Shown here piece by piece: positions 11,560 through 62,805 of a stretch of 64,000 nucleotides of DNA; position 1 is the stretch's first letter; each line of letters begins with the position of its first letter. Below the pieces are notes generated by a model. That model did no database searches and was not told where the DNA came from. It was given only the letters and a program-made list of their open reading frames with translations. This DNA comes from Candidatus Alcyoniella australis. GTDB taxonomy: Bacteria; Lernaellota; Lernaellaia; JAVCCG01; Alcyoniellaceae. Both the position numbers and the translations under genes were made by a program. The stretch covers positions 60,522 through 124,521 of the forward strand of contig JAVCCG010000017.1 of assembly GCA_030765605.1 (NCBI GenBank). The letters run 5' to 3'.

Positions 11560-13308
11560 TTAAACGGAGCCTCCACAGCAGCTTTGGTTTCGGTCATGCT
11601 CGTCCGGGGGTTGCCCGTCCGCGTCATCATCATCGTCGCCCGCAGTGTCGTCGTCATCATTATCGTAATCGTCGTCGCCCGCCGGCTCCCAGGGGAATTC
11701 GCCGATCACCGGCAGGCGTAGGGTGGTCTGATCGCCGAAGACGATCGTGTTGGTCTGATCCAGCGGCAATCCGATTTCGCCCGGCGTGAGGCCTGGATTG
11801 ATAGCGAAGAACGGCGATTCGGAGCTGGAGATCAGCACGCCGATGCGATGGCCGGTGTTGAACGCGTGGCTGGTCGACCACAGGTCGATTGTAAGCTGCG
11901 CCGCCTCGCCGGGAACCAGCGCGAGCTGTTGTTCGAATCCCTGGCGGAAGCGCGCGCGCAGGATGCCGTTGACGATCAGGATCATTCGGCCGTCGGGATA
12001 GAGGTCGACCAGGTAGGCGGTGACGTCGGTGTCCGCACGGTCGCTGATCAGCTCCACGTTGAGCAGTACTTTGCCCGTGACCTCCACCGGCTGGGGCAGC
12101 GGCTCGCTCTGGAAGTACAGCACGTCGTCGCGCTCAAGGTAGCTTGTCAGGTCGCAGGGCCCGGACAGTGCGCTCATTGAGCGGCCGCAGCGGGTGGGCA
12201 GCGGATCGTCCGGGTCGAACAGGTAGCTCAGGGTGCCCTCCGCAGGCGGATCGATCGACAGCGCGGCGTCAACGGTCGGGTAGAGCTTGACCTCGTGCTG
12301 TCCCGGCGGCGGCCAGCTCTCGCCGTACTGCCAGCTGTTGCCCGGCGCGTCGGGGTCGCTCACATCGCCCATGGTGTAGTAGCTCACCGCCGGCCAGTTG
12401 AACCCGTCCAACGTGCCCTCCAACGCCCGGTCGAGGAAGTCGTCCAGCGGATCCTTGCGCGGCGGTTTGTAGCAGCGCCGAGCGTTTTCCGGGAAGGTCA
12501 GCTCGCCTATGGTGTTCAGGCCGAAGGTGGCGTGGGTCCAGGGGCCGATCACCAGGTACTGTTGCTCGGCGCCCGCATGGCTGAAGATCTCGAATCCGCG
12601 GATCGCGCCCTCGGAGAAGAAGTCGTACCAGCCGCCAAAGTGGAACGCCGGGCTTTCCAGGTACGGTTCGCGCGTAGCCAGGTCGACCTGCTCCCAGTAC
12701 TCGTCGTATGCCGGATGGGCCAGCATCTCGGGCAGGCGGAACAGGCTGCCCTGGCCCTGAAGCCAGCCGGTGATGTCGCCCTCGCGCAGCACGCCGCCCT
12801 GGAGAAAGCCGATGTGATAAAGCGTGGGCGAGGCCGCGGCCATCACCTGACCAGCCAGCTGATCCGAGGCCGCGCCGGAGAGCATGTATTGCAGAATCGC
12901 CAGGCCCGAGTAGCCCTGGCCGACGATCGTGCCGTTGTACCAGGGCATCAGCTCGACGGCGTGCACCGTGTCCAGGCCGTCGCGCAGCTCGCCCCAGCCG
13001 TCGCAGCGAAACACGCAGTCCAAGCCCTGGGATGCGCCGCGGCCGCGGGCGTCCTGAATCACCACCGCGCGGCCCTCGTCGGCCAGCGCTCCGTAAGTGA
13101 CCATCTGCAGCTTGTCGTAGGGTGTGCGCAACAACAGCGTGGGCAGGCGGTCGCCCAGTTGGTAGCCGCCGGGCAGGTAGATATCCGTGGCTAGATTGAC
13201 GCTGTCGCGCATCGGCCACGAGAGGGGAAAGTAGAGGAACGCTTGGGCCGCCGCGGGCAGCAGCAGCGCCAGAGCCACGATCACCGCACACGCCGTTGAC
13301 CTGCGCAT
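11560..13308 (-). CDS. Secreted CocE/S15 family hydrolase-like protein with Asp-rich CCGG tail
   Basis: 582 residues with an N-terminal Sec signal (about residues 1-23), an alpha/beta hydrolase domain with cap, and a C-terminal jelly-roll typical of X-Pro dipeptidyl-peptidase/CocE proteins. The catalytic Asp (HFGGWYD, Asp229) and His (IGPWTH, His259) are present. The nucleophile motif, usually GxSYxG, reads GQGYSG, with Gly132 at the Ser position. The last 40 residues are mostly Asp and end in SCCGGSV, a tail resembling that of the glycosidase at 57759. As read it should not hydrolyse acyl or peptide bonds normally, unless Ser134 substitutes. It shares one base with the upstream beta-barrel gene (TGATG). 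Confidence 0.8.
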   Translation of the reverse strand: MRRSTACAVIVALALLLPAAAQAFLYFPLSWPMRDSVNLATDIYLPGGYQLGDRLPTLLLRTPYDKLQMVTYGALADEGRAVVIQDARGRGASQGLDCVFRCDGWGELRDGLDTVHAVELMPWYNGTIVGQGYSGLAILQYMLSGAASDQLAGQVMAAASPTLYHIGFLQGGVLREGDITGWLQGQGSLFRLPEMLAHPAYDEYWEQVDLATREPYLESPAFHFGGWYDFFSEGAIRGFEIFSHAGAEQQYLVIGPWTHATFGLNTIGELTFPENARRCYKPPRKDPLDDFLDRALEGTLDGFNWPAVSYYTMGDVSDPDAPGNSWQYGESWPPPGQHEVKLYPTVDAALSIDPPAEGTLSYLFDPDDPLPTRCGRSMSALSGPCDLTSYLERDDVLYFQSEPLPQPVEVTGKVLLNVELISDRADTDVTAYLVDLYPDGRMILIVNGILRARFRQGFEQQLALVPGEAAQLTIDLWSTSHAFNTGHRIGVLISSSESPFFAINPGLTPGEIGLPLDQTNTIVFGDQTTLRLPVIGEFPWEPAGDDDYDNDDDDTAGDDDDDADGQPPDEHDRNQSCCGGSV

Positions 13309-17174: not shown

Positions 17175-17290
17175 CGGGTCGTGGCCGGGCTTGCACGCAT
17201 TTATGCTCACAGGTAGCCTCTAGCCTGGATAATCCGGGTCGACCTTGCCCAAGAAGGTCACGGGGATAAACAAGTAAACGGAGATCGAAG

Positions 17291-19495
17291 ATGAAGCGCT
17301 GGATATTTATGGCGATGCTGCTGGCGACCCTGGCCCTTGTGTTTACCATCGGCGGCGGTTGCAGCTGCAGCGGCGATGATGACGACGACGACGACGATGA
17401 TGACGATGACGATGACAACCAAGGCGATGTGCCCGACGAGGCGTTTCAGGAGATCTGCGGCGAGCGCGACTGGCTTGATACCTTGCAGCCGACCGAGCTG
17501 GTCTACGACTCGGGCAACGAGTTCGGCAACGACGGCCGCCTGCATTACGACCTGGCCGAGGGCGACGTGGCCGCGGTGCACTTTATTCCCGAGCACTCGC
17601 TGTGGATCAAGAAGCTCCGCGTGCACTTCACCGGCGAGGGGGGGCCGATCCGGGTCCACGTCTATGAGGGGTACGGCCGCTCGCGTCCGAACACCGACGT
17701 CGACCTGACCGAACCGATCGAGCAGGATATCGAAACCGACGCCGGATGGGTCGAGATCGACATCAGCGACCGCCAGCTGGTGGTGCTGCCCTCGAACCAC
17801 TTCTGGGTCGGTTACGAGCACGTCAACGAGCAGCCCTACATCAGCATGGACAACGGCGTGGACAACGATTCGACCCACAGCCTGATCCGCATCGAGGCCG
17901 CGCAGCACGATATCAGCCCCTTCGATTGGATCGGCCTGGGCGACGTGGCGTTTATGATCCAGGTTACGGGCGACTACTTCTGCGAACTGGATATCAACGA
18001 GCGCCAGTTCACCAACGTCAGCGAGCAGGCCGGACTCTCCGAGCTCTCGGCTGTGCGCATCAACTGGGGCGACGTCAACAACGATGGCTGGGACGACATG
18101 CTCCTGCATCGTCTGGGCTATATCGACGAAACCGCCAATCTGCTGCTCAACAATCAGGACGGTACGTTCGAGAACGTCACCGACGATTCGGACCTCGACG
18201 GCCACTACGCGAGCTTCGGCGGCCTGGCCGATTTTGACAACGACGGCAACCTCGATGTGTACCTCGGGGTCAACGTACCCAATGAGGACGCCGATCCGCC
18301 GGACAACGGCGCGCGTTCGCTGATCATGCTCGGCGACGGCGAGGGCGGATTCACTGAAGTCGCGGGCAACGGCGTGGACCTCGAAGCCTCGACGTCCGCG
18401 GCCTCCATCGCCGACTACGACGCCGACGGCGACCTCGACATTTACGTGGGCAACTGGCTGGTCAAGTACCCCTCTCCGGCGTGCTGGTCCGACTTCATTT
18501 TTAACGGCAAGGGCAACGGCAAGTTCGATGAGACCTCCGCCGCGACCGGCATCGCCGTCCTTGAGGCGCGTCCGAGCTACGGCGTGACTTGGGTCGACTT
18601 CGACATGGACAACGACATGGACATCTCGGTCGCCAACTACGGCCGCGTCGACAACTTCCTGCTCGAAAACAAGAACGGACACTTCACCGACGTCGCGCCC
18701 CAAGTCGAGCTCGACCGCCAGGGCGTGGGCACCGGCGGCAACACCTTCGGCACCGACTGGGGCGACGCCAACAACGACGGCTACTTCGATACCTACCAGG
18801 CCGAGATCGCCCACCCGCGCTACCAGCCCAGCTCGGACATCGGCTCGATGATGTTCGGAATGGGCCCGGACGAGGACTGGCTGTTCCAGAATGTTACCGA
18901 AGCCGCCGGGATCTTCTACGACGAGGGGCAGGTCGACCCCAGCTGGGTCGACTACAACAACGACGGCCGCCTCGATTTCGCGCTCAGCGTGCTCTACACG
19001 TTGCAATACTTCCGGCTCTACCGCCAGGAAGAGGACGGTACGTTCACCGACGTGACCTACATCACCGGCACCGAGATTCTGGACACCAACAACAACGCCT
19101 GGGCCGACTTTGACAACGACGGCGACATGGACCTGATGAACATGGACCGCCGTTCCGGCGGGCACGCCAACCTGTTCCGCAACGACATCGGCAACGAGCT
19201 GAACTGGCTCGAGATCAGCCTGCGCGGCACCGACTCCAACCGCATGGCCGTGGGCGCGCGGGTCGAGATTTCCAGCCCGAGCATCGAGTACCAGGTGCGC
19301 TACGTGCAGGCGGGCAAGGGACACGCCTGTAGCCAGCATTCGGCGCGGCTGCACTTCGGCCTGAACACCGACGATGTGGTGCAGATCCTGACCGTCTACT
19401 GGCCCTCGGGATTGGAAGAGGAGTTCGGCGAGATCCCGGCCAACAGCTGGATCAAGATCACGGAGGGCGACGACGACTACGAGGTCGTGCAGTAA
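17291..19495 (+). CDS. Asp-rich lipoprotein with FG-GAP/VCBS repeats and C-terminal ASPIC/UnbV domain
   Basis: 734 residues. Lipoprotein signal with Cys at about residue 24, then an uninterrupted 14-Asp run. After a lectin-like region (about 45-230) come at least seven calcium-binding FG-GAP/VCBS blades marked by DVNNDGWDD, DFDNDGNLD, DYDADGDLD, DFDMDNDMD, DANNDGYFD, DYNNDGRLD and DFDNDGDMD. These form an integrin-like propeller. The C-terminal 100 residues (AVGARVEIS, YWPSGLEEEF) match the ASPIC/UnbV module that follows such propellers. Likely a cell-surface binding protein. GGAG lies 7 bases before the ATG, and the gene ends with a strong terminator. Confidence 0.9.
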   Translation: MKRWIFMAMLLATLALVFTIGGGCSCSGDDDDDDDDDDDDDDNQGDVPDEAFQEICGERDWLDTLQPTELVYDSGNEFGNDGRLHYDLAEGDVAAVHFIPEHSLWIKKLRVHFTGEGGPIRVHVYEGYGRSRPNTDVDLTEPIEQDIETDAGWVEIDISDRQLVVLPSNHFWVGYEHVNEQPYISMDNGVDNDSTHSLIRIEAAQHDISPFDWIGLGDVAFMIQVTGDYFCELDINERQFTNVSEQAGLSELSAVRINWGDVNNDGWDDMLLHRLGYIDETANLLLNNQDGTFENVTDDSDLDGHYASFGGLADFDNDGNLDVYLGVNVPNEDADPPDNGARSLIMLGDGEGGFTEVAGNGVDLEASTSAASIADYDADGDLDIYVGNWLVKYPSPACWSDFIFNGKGNGKFDETSAATGIAVLEARPSYGVTWVDFDMDNDMDISVANYGRVDNFLLENKNGHFTDVAPQVELDRQGVGTGGNTFGTDWGDANNDGYFDTYQAEIAHPRYQPSSDIGSMMFGMGPDEDWLFQNVTEAAGIFYDEGQVDPSWVDYNNDGRLDFALSVLYTLQYFRLYRQEEDGTFTDVTYITGTEILDTNNNAWADFDNDGDMDLMNMDRRSGGHANLFRNDIGNELNWLEISLRGTDSNRMAVGARVEISSPSIEYQVRYVQAGKGHACSQHSARLHFGLNTDDVVQILTVYWPSGLEEEFGEIPANSWIKITEGDDDYEVVQ

Positions 19496-55343: not shown

Positions 55344-56443
55344 TCAGCCTTTTAAGTGTTCGTCAAAGAATTGAAAGATCTGATCCATCTCGCCGTAGAA
55401 ACCATAGGGCGACTGATAGATCGGCGTCAGGCAGCTTTCCGGCTCGTTGATCAGCTCGTGATAGGGGTAGAGCGCCGGCGCGGTCTCATCCTGGAGCAGG
55501 CCGTTGTCAACGGCGTAGTACTCTCCGAAGCAGTCCGAGACATAGGCTTTGAAGCCCGGCTCGTGGCGCACCAGCAGGTTGCCGGCCACCGAGCCGCCCG
55601 AGTGGCCGATCAGCCCGATGCCGTCGTTGTCGACCTGCTCGAGGTATTGCAGGTACTTCAGCCCCAGCAGCGCTTCGTAACCGCGTACGCCGATCAAGGT
55701 AAAGCCGCCTTGCAGCATGCTGCGCGTGACCAGATCCTCGGATTGGCCGCCGGCCATTGCCCGCGAGGCGAGCATCAGGATCGCGTAGCCGTGGTCGGGG
55801 TACGATGCGCCGCCGTAATCGTCGCGAAAGACCGCGGGCGCGTCGTTGTGTCCGTGCAGCGCCAGCACTGCGGGAAACGGCTCGTCCTTGTATTTGGGAA
55901 TCAGCAGGATCGCCTTGAACGTGCCCACGTAGGGGTCGGCCAGCAGCAGCTCGCGCTCGTAGTAGCGCGCGGTTTGGTCGCGGCGGATCACCGTGACGTA
56001 CAGCGGACGCTGGTTGATCCCCTGGCGCAGGAACCCGACGTTGGCCTGCTCGACGATCAGCTCCCCCAGCTCTTGCCCGGGCGGAAGCTGGTCGAGCACA
56101 TCGACCTGGCCCAGCTCGATCTGTTCAAGCTGTTGATCGAGCTCCTCGGAGCTGACCGGCGCACCGTGTTCCGCCGCGATCTGCACGAAGGTCAGGTAGT
56201 CGTCCACGCAGGTGTGCTGCTCGATGCAATCCCAGTCCGCGTCCAGATCCTCATCCTCGAACACGCAGTATTGGTTGGGACACTGGACCTCGTCGTCGTC
56301 TCCGCTGTCGTCGTCGTCGTCATTCGAATCGTCGTCGTCTGTTGACGCGCCGCGCGACCCGCTGTCGTCGGCCTGATCCGCGCACCCGGCGCACAGCACA
56401 ATGCCCAGCGCCAGCACGATCAGCGGCAGCAACAGCGCGCCTC

Positions 56444-56447
<4 letters not shown>
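55344..56447 (-). CDS. Asp-rich lipoprotein, alpha/beta hydrolase-like (copy 2)
   Basis: 367 residues from a GTG at 56447 that overlaps the upstream copy's stop (GTGA). Lipoprotein signal (VLALGIVLCAGC), Asp-rich linker, then paired Cys (CPNQYC, CVDDY) and an alpha/beta hydrolase domain with LALHGHND (oxyanion) and the nucleophile elbow GLIGHSGGSVAG (Ser about 282). The end reads SPYGFYGEMDQIFQFFDEHL, where similar hydrolases carry the catalytic His before the last helix; here a Tyr is seen. It is a tandem paralogue of the gene at 56444. Substrate unknown. Confidence 0.8.
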
Positions 56448-57658
<1,211 letters not shown>

Positions 57659-57758: not shown

Positions 57759-59216
57759 ATGTACCCTCGAAGTTACAACTACTCGCTATTGCTCGTATTC
57801 GTGGCACTGGCGCTGCTTGCGACCACGGCCGTATCTGCCGACCAGGGGTTTTTCTCGGTCGAGCAGCGCGACGGCCGCTGGTGGTTCATCGATCCTGACG
57901 GCGAGATCTTCATCTCCACCGGCGTCAACCTGATCAACCCCGGCGGGCACTACGCTCCGGCCCTGGGTTACAGCCCGTACCAGCGCAACATCATCGAGCT
58001 TTACGGCTCGGAGCAGGCCTGGGCCGCGGTGACCCTGGAGCGCATGGAGCAGTGGGGCCTGAACACGTTGGGCGGCTGGAGCAAGGCCGCGCTGTTTCCG
58101 GATACGCCCTACACCAACGTGCTCTACCTCTCCGGCGCCAACTGGGAAAGCGGCGTTGTGCCCGACTACTTCTCCGAGGAGTTTCTCGACCGCGTGGAGC
58201 AGATCTGCTCGAGCACCGTGGCTGCTGGGGCCGACGATCCGCTGCTGCTGGGTTGGTTCATCGACAATGAGATGCGCTGGGGCGCTGATTGGCGCGTGCT
58301 GCGCGACCTGTTCGCCGACTACTATGCCTTTGATCAGGACGCGCCGGGCAAGGCCGCGCTGGTGGAGTTTCTGCGCGGGCGCTACAACAACGAGATCGAG
58401 GCTTTCAACGCCGCCTGGGGCACGCGGCACGCGAGCTTTGACGCGCTGTATGGCGAGACCCGCACCAGCGCCATGCCCGCCAATCAGGCCCAGGCCGCGG
58501 ACCGCGAAGCGTTCCTGGCGCTGCTCGCCGAGCAGTTTTTCAGTACGGTGGAGCAGGGGATCCGCGAGTACGATCAGCAGCATCTGATCCTCGGTTCGCG
58601 CCTGGTCTCGTGGGTCACACCGCGGGTGGTGCTCGAGGCTGCGACGCGGCACTGCGACGTGCTTTCGATCAATCACTACCGCGTCTGGCCGACCGTCGCG
58701 GACCTGCTGCGCACCCTGCAGCGCGAGCTGAACTACGTGGGCGTGGACGACGAATCGACCCTCTCCGAGTACTTTGACGAGGCGGGCCTGCCGATCTTGG
58801 TCAGCGAGTTTTCGATGCGCGGCATGGACGCGGGCCTGCCCAACACCTGGCCGCCCAACGTGCTGTTCATCACCGCCGATACCCAGCAGCAGCGCGCTTA
58901 CCTGTTCGAGCAGATGGCGCGCACCTGGCTCGAGGGCGGGTACGTGATCGGCTATCACTGGTTCGACTGGATGGACGAGCCGGTCTCCGGCCGCTTTGAC
59001 GGCGAGAACTCCAACTTCGGCCTGGTCACCGAGCTGGACGAGCCCTACGAGCTGCTGACCGCCACCATGGCCGCGGTCAACGCCACGGCCTACGACTGGG
59101 AGCCGCCCGCACCCGACGACGACGATGATGTGGCCGACGACGATGATGACGACGACAGCGGTGACGACGATGTGGCAGGCGATGACGACGACGACGATTC
59201 GGGGTGCTGCGGGTAA
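57759..59216 (+). CDS. Secreted glycoside hydrolase (clan A-like) with Asp-rich CCG tail
   Basis: About 485 residues from the ATG at 57759 (start of the signal peptide MYPRSYNYSLLLVFVALALLATTAVSA; ATG 57729 and TTG 57708 are in frame). A small strand region (RDGRWWFIDPDGEIFISTGV) leads into a TIM-barrel like those of beta-agarase and GH42/GH50-type enzymes. Likely acid/base is Glu in FIDNEMRWG (about 171) and nucleophile Glu in ILVSEFSMRG (about 350). The last 35 residues are almost all Asp and end SGCCG, like the S15-like protein at 11560. Substrate unknown. It diverges from the hydrolase pair. Confidence 0.78.
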   Translation: MYPRSYNYSLLLVFVALALLATTAVSADQGFFSVEQRDGRWWFIDPDGEIFISTGVNLINPGGHYAPALGYSPYQRNIIELYGSEQAWAAVTLERMEQWGLNTLGGWSKAALFPDTPYTNVLYLSGANWESGVVPDYFSEEFLDRVEQICSSTVAAGADDPLLLGWFIDNEMRWGADWRVLRDLFADYYAFDQDAPGKAALVEFLRGRYNNEIEAFNAAWGTRHASFDALYGETRTSAMPANQAQAADREAFLALLAEQFFSTVEQGIREYDQQHLILGSRLVSWVTPRVVLEAATRHCDVLSINHYRVWPTVADLLRTLQRELNYVGVDDESTLSEYFDEAGLPILVSEFSMRGMDAGLPNTWPPNVLFITADTQQQRAYLFEQMARTWLEGGYVIGYHWFDWMDEPVSGRFDGENSNFGLVTELDEPYELLTATMAAVNATAYDWEPPAPDDDDDVADDDDDDDSGDDDVAGDDDDDDSGCCG

Positions 59217-59828
59217 ACGCCGCTGATCGTAAATCATGTGGTTTTTCAAGCCGAGTAGGGCGCTTTAGTAAGAAATTACTTTACATCTGTGATTTGCCTA
59301 AAAATCGATGATTAATGTTGTTAATCAAGTGGTTGAAGGCTATTGCATAATATATTGCATGAGGGTTTGCATACGAATTGTGATTTCAAATCACAGATTT
59401 CGTATAGGTTACGAAGCGCGTATAGTTGTTGATATTACTTGGTAATCGCGATTTGGCTCCATACGATGTTCATATAATGTTTTTCCCTGCCGCGTAAGGT
59501 CTTGATTAATCAGGGTAATCTTGAAACCGCACGCATACGATAATCTTTCGAAAAAAACCGCGATTTCGCTGTAATTCCGCCTAAGTACGATAGGGCTTAG
59601 TTGATCGCATAGGTTCTGTTTTTGCAGGTCTGTAAGTTGCTGAATCTAATGGGAAATAATCGCATGGAAAATTTAGCAAAACATTATGTCAACTACACTC
59701 CTAGCCCCGTAGTTACTCCAACCACCATGGTCTATTAAGTTGTTAAAGAGCACCTTTATATTTTACCAGGGGGCGGCGCTGTGTGTCAAATGTTATTAGA
59801 CAAGGCTGGTGAAATTTGGCGTTATAAC
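59217..59828. other. AT-rich gene-free stretch with phased TTGCAT repeats and a long palindrome
   Basis: Base composition drops sharply here. Three TTGCAT hexamers lie at 59343, 59355 and 59367, exactly 12 bp apart, followed by a palindrome: ATACGAA (59371-59377), TGTGATTT / AAATCACA around one C (59379-59395), TTCGTAT (59399-59405). This looks like a binding-site cluster. A 29-codon frame at 59649-59738 has no ribosome site and is not called. Nothing else is recognisable. Confidence 0.6.
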
Positions 59829-60607
59829 GTAGATTCTTCGCTTCGCTCAGAATGACAAACGGCGGACGATGTGCAGCGTTATATCGCAATGATATCATAG
59901 GTAAACCGTCATCCTGAGTCCCTTGGACGAAGGATCTACGTGCGCACGTGGAATTTGTTGTGAATTGTCGCTTGGTGGTTGCAGGACGTGGATTCTTCAC
60001 TTCGTTCAGAATGACAGCCCGCGCGCGACTTACAGCGTTATATCGTGTTGATATCGTACGCCATTTGTCATCCTGAGGCCCAGGGCCGAAGGATCTACGT
60101 GCGCACGGTGGATTTGTCTATAATGGACGATTGGTGGTTGTAGAAAGTAGATTCTTCACTTCGTTCAGGGTGACAGCCCGCGCGCGACTGATAGCGTTAT
60201 ATAGCAATGATATCAATCGACAAGCTGTCATCCTGAGTCCCTTGGCCGAAGGATCTACGTGCGCACGTGTAATTTGTTGTGAATTGGCGCTTGGTGGTTG
60301 TAGGACGTAGATTCTTCACTTCGTTCAGAATGACAGTTTGCGGGCGACTGACAGCGTTATATCGCATTGATATCATACGATAAATCGTCATCCTGAGTCC
60401 CTTGGACGAAGGATCTACGTGCGCACGTGGAATTTGTCTATAATTGGCGCAGAGTGGTTGTAGGGCGTAGATTCTTCACTTCGTTCAGAATGACAGCCCG
60501 CGCGCGACTGACAGCGTTATATACCATTGATATCAAACGATAAACCGTCATCCTGAGGCCCTGGGCCGAAGGATCTACGTACGGATGGTGAATTTGTTGT
60601 GAACTGG
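59829..60607. repeat. Tandem array of five ~160-bp palindrome-bearing repeats
   Basis: GCGTTATAT recurs at 59876, 60035, 60194, 60354 and 60514, giving a period of 159-160 bp. Each unit has a left arm TCATCCTGAG...CGAAGGATCTACGT and, after about 45 bases, its inverted counterpart ACGTAGATTCTTC...CAGAATGACA, so each can form a long imperfect hairpin. Units differ at scattered bases. The last unit stops near 60607, beside the STAND gene, and appears to resume at about 63023. No spacers of CRISPR type are present. Confidence 0.9.
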
Positions 60608-60618
60608 CGTAAAACGCC

Positions 60619-62805
60619 CTACACCTTGCCGCGCAGACGGTCGAGGTTGCGGCGCGCGATCTTGATCTCGGGCTTGGCGCCGATGCGCTCGAAGATCTCC
60701 AGGGCCTGCTGCATAAGCTCAATGGCTTGCGGGATGTCGCCCTGTTCCTCGTGGACCGAGCCGATCTGGTGGAGGTCAATAGCCACACCAGGCAGATCGC
60801 CAATTTCTTTTCTAATAGAAAGACTAAGCTCGTGTTGTTTTAAAGATTCAGTCAATGAACCCTGATCCATGTAGACAATACCGATTTGGCTAATAACGGC
60901 CGCCTGCTCCTTTTTCGCGCCCAACTCATCGAATATCTCTTGCGCCTGCTGGTATTGCTCCAGGGCGGCGGCCAAATCGCCGCGCACTTGGTTAACTACT
61001 CCAATATTATGTAAAGTTTGGGCGATGCCCGCTTTATCTCCTAGTTCTTTCTTGATCTCGAGGCTCTGCTGGTATTGCTCCAGGGCCGCAGTGTAATCAC
61101 CTCTTGCACGATGGATCATGCCGATCTGGTGGAGGGCCATACCAACTCCTGCCTTGTCGTGGATCTCGCGCTTGATTTTGATGCTCTGCTGGTATTGCTC
61201 CAGGGCGGCGTCCAAATCGCCGCGATTCTGATGGATCATGCCAATCTGGTGGAGGACGGCGGCTGTATTCCGTTGATCTGATGCTGCTTTCAAAATATCT
61301 AAGCTCTTAAAATATAATGCCAATGCTTCTATATACTGCCCTGTTTGCTGATAGAGAATACCAAGATTTAATAATGCAACGCCCCCTTCTTTCCCCAAGC
61401 TGCGCGCGCCGCGGACCAGGTCGGGAAGCATCTGCTGGACCGAGACCAGCCAATCTGTGGGCACGATGCCCTGCTTTTGTGCGATGTAATCCGAGAGCAT
61501 ATCCGCATAGGCCCCGAGGAGCTGAAGCTGTTGTGCCTTGGCCTCGGGTTCGAGCTTGCGTTGCAAGGTCTGGCGGATCAGGGAGTGGAAGGCGTAGGTT
61601 TTAACAGCGGGATAGCGGGCAACAGGTCCGTGTTCCAGCAGGCTACGCTGGTGCAATGAGAAAAGCAGTTTGTTGGCATATTCGGTCTGAAGCTGGTCGT
61701 CCTCTTTAAACTCAGCCAAGAACTCCCCGGCCTCGGCCACGAACTCGCCCTTGAAAACCGAACAGGCCCGCAGCATGCGTAGCTCGTCCGGCGGCAGGTT
61801 GCGCAGGCTGAGATCGAGTGACTCGTCAAGGCTGCGCTGGTTCTGTTCCTCGGTCTCGACCCTCGCCTGGGGAAGCAGGTCCAGCACCTGGTCCACTGCC
61901 TTCTGGGCATCAAGAGGCGACTTGGAGAGAAAACCACCGATCAGCCTGCACGACAACGGATGGTCGGCCAGCTTGGCCGCAATGCTGTCCATCTGCTCGT
62001 CGCTGTATTCCTGCTGGCGATCACCCAGGGCGGAGCAGAGGATGTCGATGGCGGTCTGCCTTTCAGGACTTACGACCTTGATTGTCTTTTCATCATCCAG
62101 ACCGACCGGATGTCTGCGCGAGGTGAACATCAGCACGGTGCTCTTGCCGATGCGCGAGAGGAAATCCTTCAGGGCGATTGCGGCCTGGTCCTTGTTGTCA
62201 ATTGCATGCAGCACGGTCTCAAAGTTGTCCAGGATCAGCAGGCGGCGGCCATTAGATAAGTTGTTCAACACCTCTGATTTAAGCTCGTCCCCGGATAGCT
62301 TCTCGATGGCATCCTTGCCCAGGAGCCGTTTGCCGATCTGGTTGAGGAAATTTTGCAGGGTTGTGTCGGTCTTGAAGCTGAAGCCCCAGACAGCGTCGAA
62401 GCGGTCCTTGACCCGCTCGGCCGCCTTGCACGCGAGCACGGACTTGCCGATGCCGCCCATGCCCAGCAGGGTGAGCACGCGGGTGCCCTGAGCAATTTCA
62501 TCGGCTATTTGCCTGATTTCCTGTCGCCGACCATGGAAAGTCGAAGGTGTGTAAATTGAGGAAAGGTCTATATCAGTAGTTGCTTTAACTTCGCCTTCTT
62601 CTTCCGGCAAGGCATTGTCTTTCGTCCCCTCCGGCACGGTTGTATGGCGATAAAGGAATCGTAGAAGAATAATGGTTGCTACAATTAGCGCCCCTGATAT
62701 TAAATAGCTATCTAGCCATTGATGAACGAAAAAGACCAGAGCGAGACAAGCGACCAATAGGGCAAAAAACATAATCGAATCATTTCGAGACCAGCCCTTA
62801 AACAC
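60619..62805 (-). CDS. Membrane-anchored STAND (NB-ARC/NACHT-like) ATPase with six TPRs
   Basis: 728 residues. Two membrane helices at about 11-29 and 34-52 are followed by a short linker and a STAND ATPase: P-loop LLGMGGIGKS (115-122), Walker B LLILDNFE (Asp193), sensor LMFTSRR, then a winged-helix region (about 330-450). Residues about 490-715 are six TPRs of exactly 40 residues with near-identical cores (ALEQYQQSLEIKKELGDKAG). STAND proteins switch on by nucleotide exchange after ligand binding to the repeats. Some guard against phage; others regulate transcription. Here the only effector candidate is the membrane pair, suggesting a membrane-acting response. AT-richer than core genes and embedded in repeats, so probably acquired. 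Confidence 0.88.
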   Translation of the reverse strand: MFKGWSRNDSIMFFALLVACLALVFFVHQWLDSYLISGALIVATIILLRFLYRHTTVPEGTKDNALPEEEGEVKATTDIDLSSIYTPSTFHGRRQEIRQIADEIAQGTRVLTLLGMGGIGKSVLACKAAERVKDRFDAVWGFSFKTDTTLQNFLNQIGKRLLGKDAIEKLSGDELKSEVLNNLSNGRRLLILDNFETVLHAIDNKDQAAIALKDFLSRIGKSTVLMFTSRRHPVGLDDEKTIKVVSPERQTAIDILCSALGDRQQEYSDEQMDSIAAKLADHPLSCRLIGGFLSKSPLDAQKAVDQVLDLLPQARVETEEQNQRSLDESLDLSLRNLPPDELRMLRACSVFKGEFVAEAGEFLAEFKEDDQLQTEYANKLLFSLHQRSLLEHGPVARYPAVKTYAFHSLIRQTLQRKLEPEAKAQQLQLLGAYADMLSDYIAQKQGIVPTDWLVSVQQMLPDLVRGARSLGKEGGVALLNLGILYQQTGQYIEALALYFKSLDILKAASDQRNTAAVLHQIGMIHQNRGDLDAALEQYQQSIKIKREIHDKAGVGMALHQIGMIHRARGDYTAALEQYQQSLEIKKELGDKAGIAQTLHNIGVVNQVRGDLAAALEQYQQAQEIFDELGAKKEQAAVISQIGIVYMDQGSLTESLKQHELSLSIRKEIGDLPGVAIDLHQIGSVHEEQGDIPQAIELMQQALEIFERIGAKPEIKIARRNLDRLRGKV

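Follow-up and report, generated by a model that had tools for sequence, protein, structure and literature searches.

The window analysed here, a stretch of 64,000 nucleotides from the genome of Candidatus Alcyoniella australis, carries two genes whose products are unrelated to each other. Each product begins with a type I signal peptide and finishes with an Asp-rich tract and a cysteine-containing end. The product of the first, a GH42-like hydrolase, terminates in DDDDDVADDDDDDDSGDDDVAGDDDDDDSGCCG (DDDDDDSGCCG, then stop), and that of the second, a CocE/S15 hydrolase encoded on the opposite strand, terminates in DDDDDADGQPPDEHDRNQSCCGGSV (DRNQSCCGGSV, then stop). The window also encodes four lipoproteins in which an Asp tract follows the lipobox Cys. 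The features are:

57759-59216, + strand: ORF of a secreted GH42-like glycoside hydrolase with the tail (PF02449, E 7e-5)
57759-57839, + strand: its type I signal peptide MYPRSYNYSLLLVFVALALLATTAVSA, without lipobox (called by our own heuristic, not SignalP)
59115-59204, + strand: Asp tract DDDDDVADDDDDDDSGDDDVAGDDDDDDSG of the GH42-like hydrolase
59205-59213, + strand: terminal Cys-Cys-Gly of the GH42-like hydrolase, followed at once by the stop TAA
11560-13308, - strand: secreted CocE/S15 (X-Pro-dipeptidyl-peptidase-like) hydrolase with a variant tail (PF02129, PF08530)
11581-11676, - strand: Asp-rich tract of the CocE/S15 hydrolase
11563-11580, - strand: terminal CCGGSV of the CocE/S15 hydrolase, with three residues beyond CCG
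661-1521, - strand: lipoprotein, lipobox Cys then Asp tract (LLAACADSGDDDDDDDDD)
17270-19495, + strand: FG-GAP/ASPIC lipoprotein, homologous to the tail-bearing protein L226; its N-terminus, GGGCSCSGDDDDDDDD, is a mirror image of the tail
55344-56606, - strand: lipoprotein, Asp tract after the lipobox Cys (CAGCADQADDSGSRGASTDDDD)
56444-57658, - strand: lipoprotein, Asp tract after the lipobox Cys, paralogue of its neighbour at 55344-56606

The adjacent lipoproteins of 55344-57658 resemble alpha/beta hydrolases by eye (GHSGGS motif), and a Pfam search of the two gave no match. Downstream of the GH42-like gene, positions 59827-60609 hold about five tandem copies of a repeat of approximately 160 bases, 64-85% identical to the reference copy, in which short ORFs read VILSEAKNLR. 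The minus-strand ORF at 60619-62805 displays, by eye, an NTPase-like (STAND-type) N-terminus and tetratricopeptide-like repeats.

In the genome that contains the window (G000; 4.29 Mb, 157 contigs), a search with TGYTGYGGNTGA, corresponding to CCG and a TGA stop, generated 72 matches versus 20 for the reversed control (p = 5e-8), and CCG with a TAR stop gave 27 versus 28 for the reversed pattern. ORFs with an Asp tract end exactly in CCG in 31 cases, in CCGK in one, in GCGC in four and in other Cys-containing ends in six (CCGGSV, CCS, SCG, CCE, CGGCAL and SCGC). Counted from ORF listings, there are at least 42 tail genes, three of them short and apparently frameshifted, and they code mostly for unrelated exported proteins. 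Since most tail genes were found through the CCG/CGC motif itself, we also drew samples blind to the tail, from 464 kb of G000 (the window and 20 other stretches), 400 kb of a second genome of the phylum (G001) and 252 kb around Lgt genes. When ORFs of at least 150 residues were compared, a Cys was present within the last six residues of 8 of the 10 that carry a C-terminal Asp tract, versus 53 of the 689 that do not (p = 8e-8). The 464-kb sample includes five proteins with a Cys tail and six lipoproteins with an N-terminal Asp tract, which scale to about 46 and 55 per genome, respectively. The last residue varies in this tail-blind sample (CCG, CCS, CCE, SCG, GCGT, GCGC), and the constant part is thus the Asp tract plus the terminal Cys. 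The codons of the tails are likewise varied (GAC and GAT, TGC and TGT, all four Gly codons, all three stops), which indicates that it is the protein sequence that is conserved and rules out a copied DNA cassette as the origin of the tail. Apparent frameshifts were seen in tail genes L114 (G003:C22), where the shift lies inside the Asp-coding repeat, L017 (G000:C147) and L107 (G000:C155), and could be due either to assembly error or to slippage of GAC repeats.

The phylum was sampled with seven genomes, representing seven genera, three families and one class. In all seven, GCGC ends exceeded the reversed-pattern control (20-81 versus 6-20; observed/control 20/6, 45/15, 52/9, 48/12, 62/10, 81/20 and 43/12), and no such excess was seen in 53 genomes of other phyla (161 versus 177 when summed). 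In G001, nearly every GCGC match that was fetched is an Asp-tract protein. Ends of the form DDDxxCCG are present in four of the seven. When 84,980 species genomes, possibly without the window's own, were scanned for the pattern, true Asp-CCG tails came up in only one other MAG of the phylum, JAOSJX01, labelled Deltaproteobacteria bacterium FR_14; four matches from Acidobacteria and one from Betaproteobacteria did not read as tails. The tail is a conserved, phylum-wide feature of exported proteins that carries the head of a MYXO-CTERM signal without its helix. The preliminary description had noted the two unrelated secreted proteins with signal peptide, Asp tract and CCG, and the similar tract after the lipobox Cys of window lipoproteins, and both points held. 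Its choice of CCG as the closing motif was partly correct, CCG being only one form and GCGC the dominant end among relatives. Its suggestion of an undescribed C-terminal sorting tail, to be withdrawn if no further proteins carried it, is supported by the numbers in G000 and by the occurrence throughout the phylum. We also note two short ORFs, L119 and L137 (G003:C27; 92 and 142 residues), that consist largely of Asp-rich repeats and a Cys tail.

With our own simple heuristic, signal peptides were called in 22 of 25 tail ORFs of G000 versus 69 of 209 other ORFs (p = 1e-7), and in 43 of 53 tail ORFs of the relatives versus 53 of 155 others (p = 3e-9). Domains found on tail-bearing proteins include subtilases, C25, M14, C1 and S15 peptidases, GDPD, metallophosphatases, Kelch, FG-GAP and PKD. 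In a set of 95 tails, most of them found through their CGC or CCG ends and therefore more biased than the tail-blind samples, 51 end in CGC, 35 in CCG and five in CGCGC, with Gly before the Cys in most; E, Q or V also occur at this position. Two Cys are usual (CC, CGC), and single-Cys ends exist (SCG, GCGT). The tails are hydrophilic, with a median net charge of -19 over 40 residues, and the highest 15-residue hydropathy within the last 40 residues has a median of -0.99 and a maximum of 1.35.

In MYXO-CTERM signals, a generic GCGC motif with its invariant Cys is followed by a helix and an Arg-rich end, and the head of M. xanthus TraA reads AFCCGTT; the MrtX protease cuts distal to the Cys, and lipidation by an unknown acyltransferase, with Lgt as the leading candidate, has been proposed (PMC11980579). 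The tails meet the signature Cys motif, be it GCGC or CCG as in TraA. The hydrophobic helix is absent, the chain ending at the Cys motif or within a few residues of it, and the short tails lack the Arg-rich C-terminus. Read-through of the stop codon into a helix was rejected: no helix followed by Arg lies in frame past the stop in any of the 104 tails examined, and all three stops are used. The 25 families most often matched, as listed for sets of 29 and 41 tail proteins, did not include TIGR03901, and NCBIfam (June 2026) gave no C-terminal sorting model among the most frequent matches of these proteins. TIGR03901 matched only helix-type proteins, which number one to four per genome in six phylum genomes and none in G001; these copies share an Asp-GCGC head, e.g. 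DDDDDDDGCGCSVTGGKASGFALPALMLMIGVFAYVLGLRRSR. Proteases of the CPBP family (PF02517) are found in the same six genomes and are missing from G001, a co-occurrence that, in seven genomes, is no more than suggestive. G001, which is 99% complete, nevertheless has approximately 45 short tails without CPBP proteases, indicating that the short tail does not need one, and a CPBP myxosortase was rejected as its required enzyme. As two defining parts were tested and found absent, the tail should not be classed as MYXO-CTERM, and it probably works like a MYXO-CTERM protein that has already been cleaved. The literature that we searched held no account of a helix-free MYXO-CTERM-like tail. Separately, L147-L151 (G003:C25) and L144/L148 (G005:C122) are tandem small Cys-rich proteins, each with a helix-type MYXO-CTERM whose head is Asp or GCGC-like.

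Proteins of the same family employ different ends. The C-terminus of subtilase L093 is a helix followed by RRRR, and its paralogues L092, L104 and L071 (34-39% identity across 530-610 residues) end in CCGK or directly in CCG; L225 of G001, included in this comparison, ends in GCGC. For the tail proteins L226, L202/L209/L228 and L234, homologues without a tail turned out to be N-terminal lipoproteins whose Cys is immediately followed by an Asp tract, namely the window protein 17270-19495 (31% over 651 residues), L314 (29-33% over about 435) and L302 (41% over 197), respectively. The N-terminal C-(x)SGDDDD of the lipoproteins mirrors the C-terminal DDDDSGC of the tails. Tail and N-terminal lipobox almost never occur in one protein: the automatic procedure placed a lipobox on six tail ORFs, of which four have a type I site that is plausible, a fifth is a false positive (ferredoxin-like) and the sixth, L304, may be an exception. 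Within single families, a lipoprotein anchor or a helix-type anchor can take the place of the tail, which points to anchoring, and the view that the tail is itself an anchor, interchangeable with the other two, is well supported. L307 (8455-12102, G005), a homologue of tail protein L221, lacks the Cys tail and has at its C-terminus, by eye, a peptidoglycan-binding domain of OmpA-like type; this pair could be another anchor swap.

All seven phylum genomes carry three copies of Lgt, compared with mostly one in the 53 genomes of other phyla; a few of the latter have two matches, which in some cases are fragments, and a single genome of 9 Mb has three. In a tree of these proteins, clades A and C are represented in all seven genomes and clade B in six. 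The clade A copy adjoins lspA and ileS in G000, a neighbourhood that identifies it as the canonical Lgt. The third copy of G000 (G000:C8, L254/L298) differs in type (RLGNFFNSE) from the clade B proteins of the relatives and may, we suggest, have replaced clade B. The neighbourhoods of the three clades revealed no common tail-related partner beyond ileS-lspA of clade A, and another genome, G034, has three Lgts and no clear tail excess (13 versus 8). It is conceivable that an accessory Lgt lipidates the C-terminal Cys, but this is speculative and rests on correlation within one clade; since the extra copies are common to one small clade, the correlation may reflect a single event.

The reading that we put forward, with confidence evenly divided for and against it, is that the tail is a lipidated-Cys surface anchor, a membrane-helix-free relative of MYXO-CTERM, for which an accessory Lgt is plausible; both lipidation and enzyme are inferred. 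The protein would be exported by Sec through its ordinary signal peptide (a heuristic call), and the Asp-rich linker would present the (S/G)-G-C-C-G or G-C-G-C end, whose Cys would be lipidated in the periplasm, although no lipid has been observed. As the chain is encoded to stop roughly at the point where a MYXO-CTERM protein ends after cleavage by myxosortase, no sorting protease would be needed, in line with G001. The acidic tract by the Cys would probably direct the protein to the external side of the outer membrane or tether it there, an inference drawn from its mirror-image likeness to the lipoprotein tracts described above and from its resemblance to the Bacteroidetes lipoprotein export signal. 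The clade C Lgt, which accompanies the canonical copy in each of the seven genomes, would be a plausible lipidating enzyme by correlation only. Several points speak against this reading. How a soluble, highly acidic, helix-free tail would reach a membrane acyltransferase lacks explanation; there is no lipobox, and the residue before the Cys is variable; and most phylum genomes keep CPBP proteases. The MYXO-CTERM likeness without hydrophobic and basic segments, proposed in the preliminary description, held and became stronger, with the same head motif and with helix-bearing versions in the phylum and within a protein family. As to the co-occurring processing enzyme that it called for, G001 excludes CPBP as a requirement, and an accessory Lgt remains a candidate. 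Among its three mechanisms, lipid anchoring is best supported, a disulfide is still possible and calcium dependence has no specific support, with neither chemistry nor enzyme shown.

A disulfide or other thiol link between the terminal Cys and a surface partner (S-layer, outer-membrane protein or polysaccharide), with the Asp tract as no more than a flexible spacer, is a possible alternative, under which the proteins would indeed be anchored, though not through a lipid. It agrees with the usual presence of two Cys and with the lack of both lipobox and membrane helix, and the anchor swaps show that anchors are interchangeable, not what their chemistry is. However, the tail shares its head motif with MYXO-CTERM proteins, whose proposed fate is lipidation (PMC11980579), single-Cys ends exist and no candidate partner has been identified. 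We regard it as unlikely that the tail is there to be recognised for export by T2SS or some other outer-membrane translocon, with proteins released into the medium and the Cys serving recognition instead of anchoring. Its presence on diverse secreted hydrolases would fit, as would the secretion of M. xanthus TraA Cys variants without MrtX (PMC11980579) and the T2SS-type GspK matches in five of the seven phylum genomes, which are themselves weak evidence. Against it stand the lipoprotein and helix-type anchors used in the same families and the N-terminal Asp-tract lipoproteins that mirror the tail; furthermore, T2SS substrates are not known to require a linear C-terminal tag.

Two further explanations appear very unlikely. 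The tails could be decayed MYXO-CTERM signals or functionless low-complexity Asp repeats; GAC-repeat tracts can expand by slippage, and L114, L017 and L107 are apparently frameshifted. Yet tens of proteins in every one of the seven genera keep the Cys end, with varied codons and stops, and no helix remnant was found past any of the 104 stops. Alternatively, poly-Asp could retain proteins at the surface through calcium, the Cys being incidental. Strongly acidic tails could bind Ca2+, but C-terminal Asp tracts nearly always end in Cys (8 of 10 in the sample), and an acidic C-terminus without Cys, in L306 (11073-12104), comes with an N-terminus that reads as that of a lipoprotein, i.e. with another anchor.

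For the lipid-anchor reading, a bolder version would be a C-terminal lipoprotein pathway in which a dedicated Lgt paralogue lipidates the terminal Cys of soluble proteins that lack a C-terminal membrane helix, with surface display through an acidic signal mirroring the N-terminal one; we consider this rather unlikely, though not remote. Both MYXO-CTERM and GlyGly-CTERM, to which the tail is compared here, depend on a membrane helix and on its removal by a protease. If the modified Cys were already the end of the tail, lipidation would be uncoupled from cleavage. The tails of G001 in the absence of CPBP, together with the extra Lgts of all seven genomes, would then make the unidentified MYXO-CTERM acyltransferase testable, and an Asp tract with a terminal Cys provides a one-line rule for predicting surface proteins, tens of them in each genome, in a phylum about which little is known.

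When compared to known systems, the tail resembles GlyGly-CTERM/rhombosortase in being a C-terminal tag that leads to surface attachment of T2SS-type cargo, but GlyGly-CTERM has a helix and a basic end, the tail has neither, and its signature residue is Cys. With the prolipoproteins of Lgt/LspA it shares a Cys preceded in most cases by G, A or S, in a phylum with additional Lgt paralogues; it differs in that the Cys is C-terminal, with no adjoining signal-peptide helix, and the lipobox [LVI][ASTVI][GAS]C is absent before it, D, S or G and then mostly G being found, with nothing hydrophobic at -3. In Bacteroidetes lipoproteins, an acidic run beside the lipidated Cys sends the protein to the surface (LES; PMC5080379), and the B. 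fragilis consensus, SDDDD after the Cys, is similar to the C-(x)SGDDDD of the present lipoproteins and mirrors the tail DDDDSGC, a resemblance of sequence only; LES is N-terminal, occurs on lipobox lipoproteins and is far shorter than the tracts of tail proteins. MYXO-CTERM/MrtX differs in its transmembrane helix and Arg cluster, in place of which the tail has a long Asp tract and, as encoded, stops at the Cys or a few residues after it, and the tail occurs in a genome free of CPBP. Nevertheless, the two have in common a C-terminal GCGC or CCG head with an essential Cys, a signal peptide, diverse large secreted cargo and tens of proteins per genome, and proteins of the same family swap between both forms.
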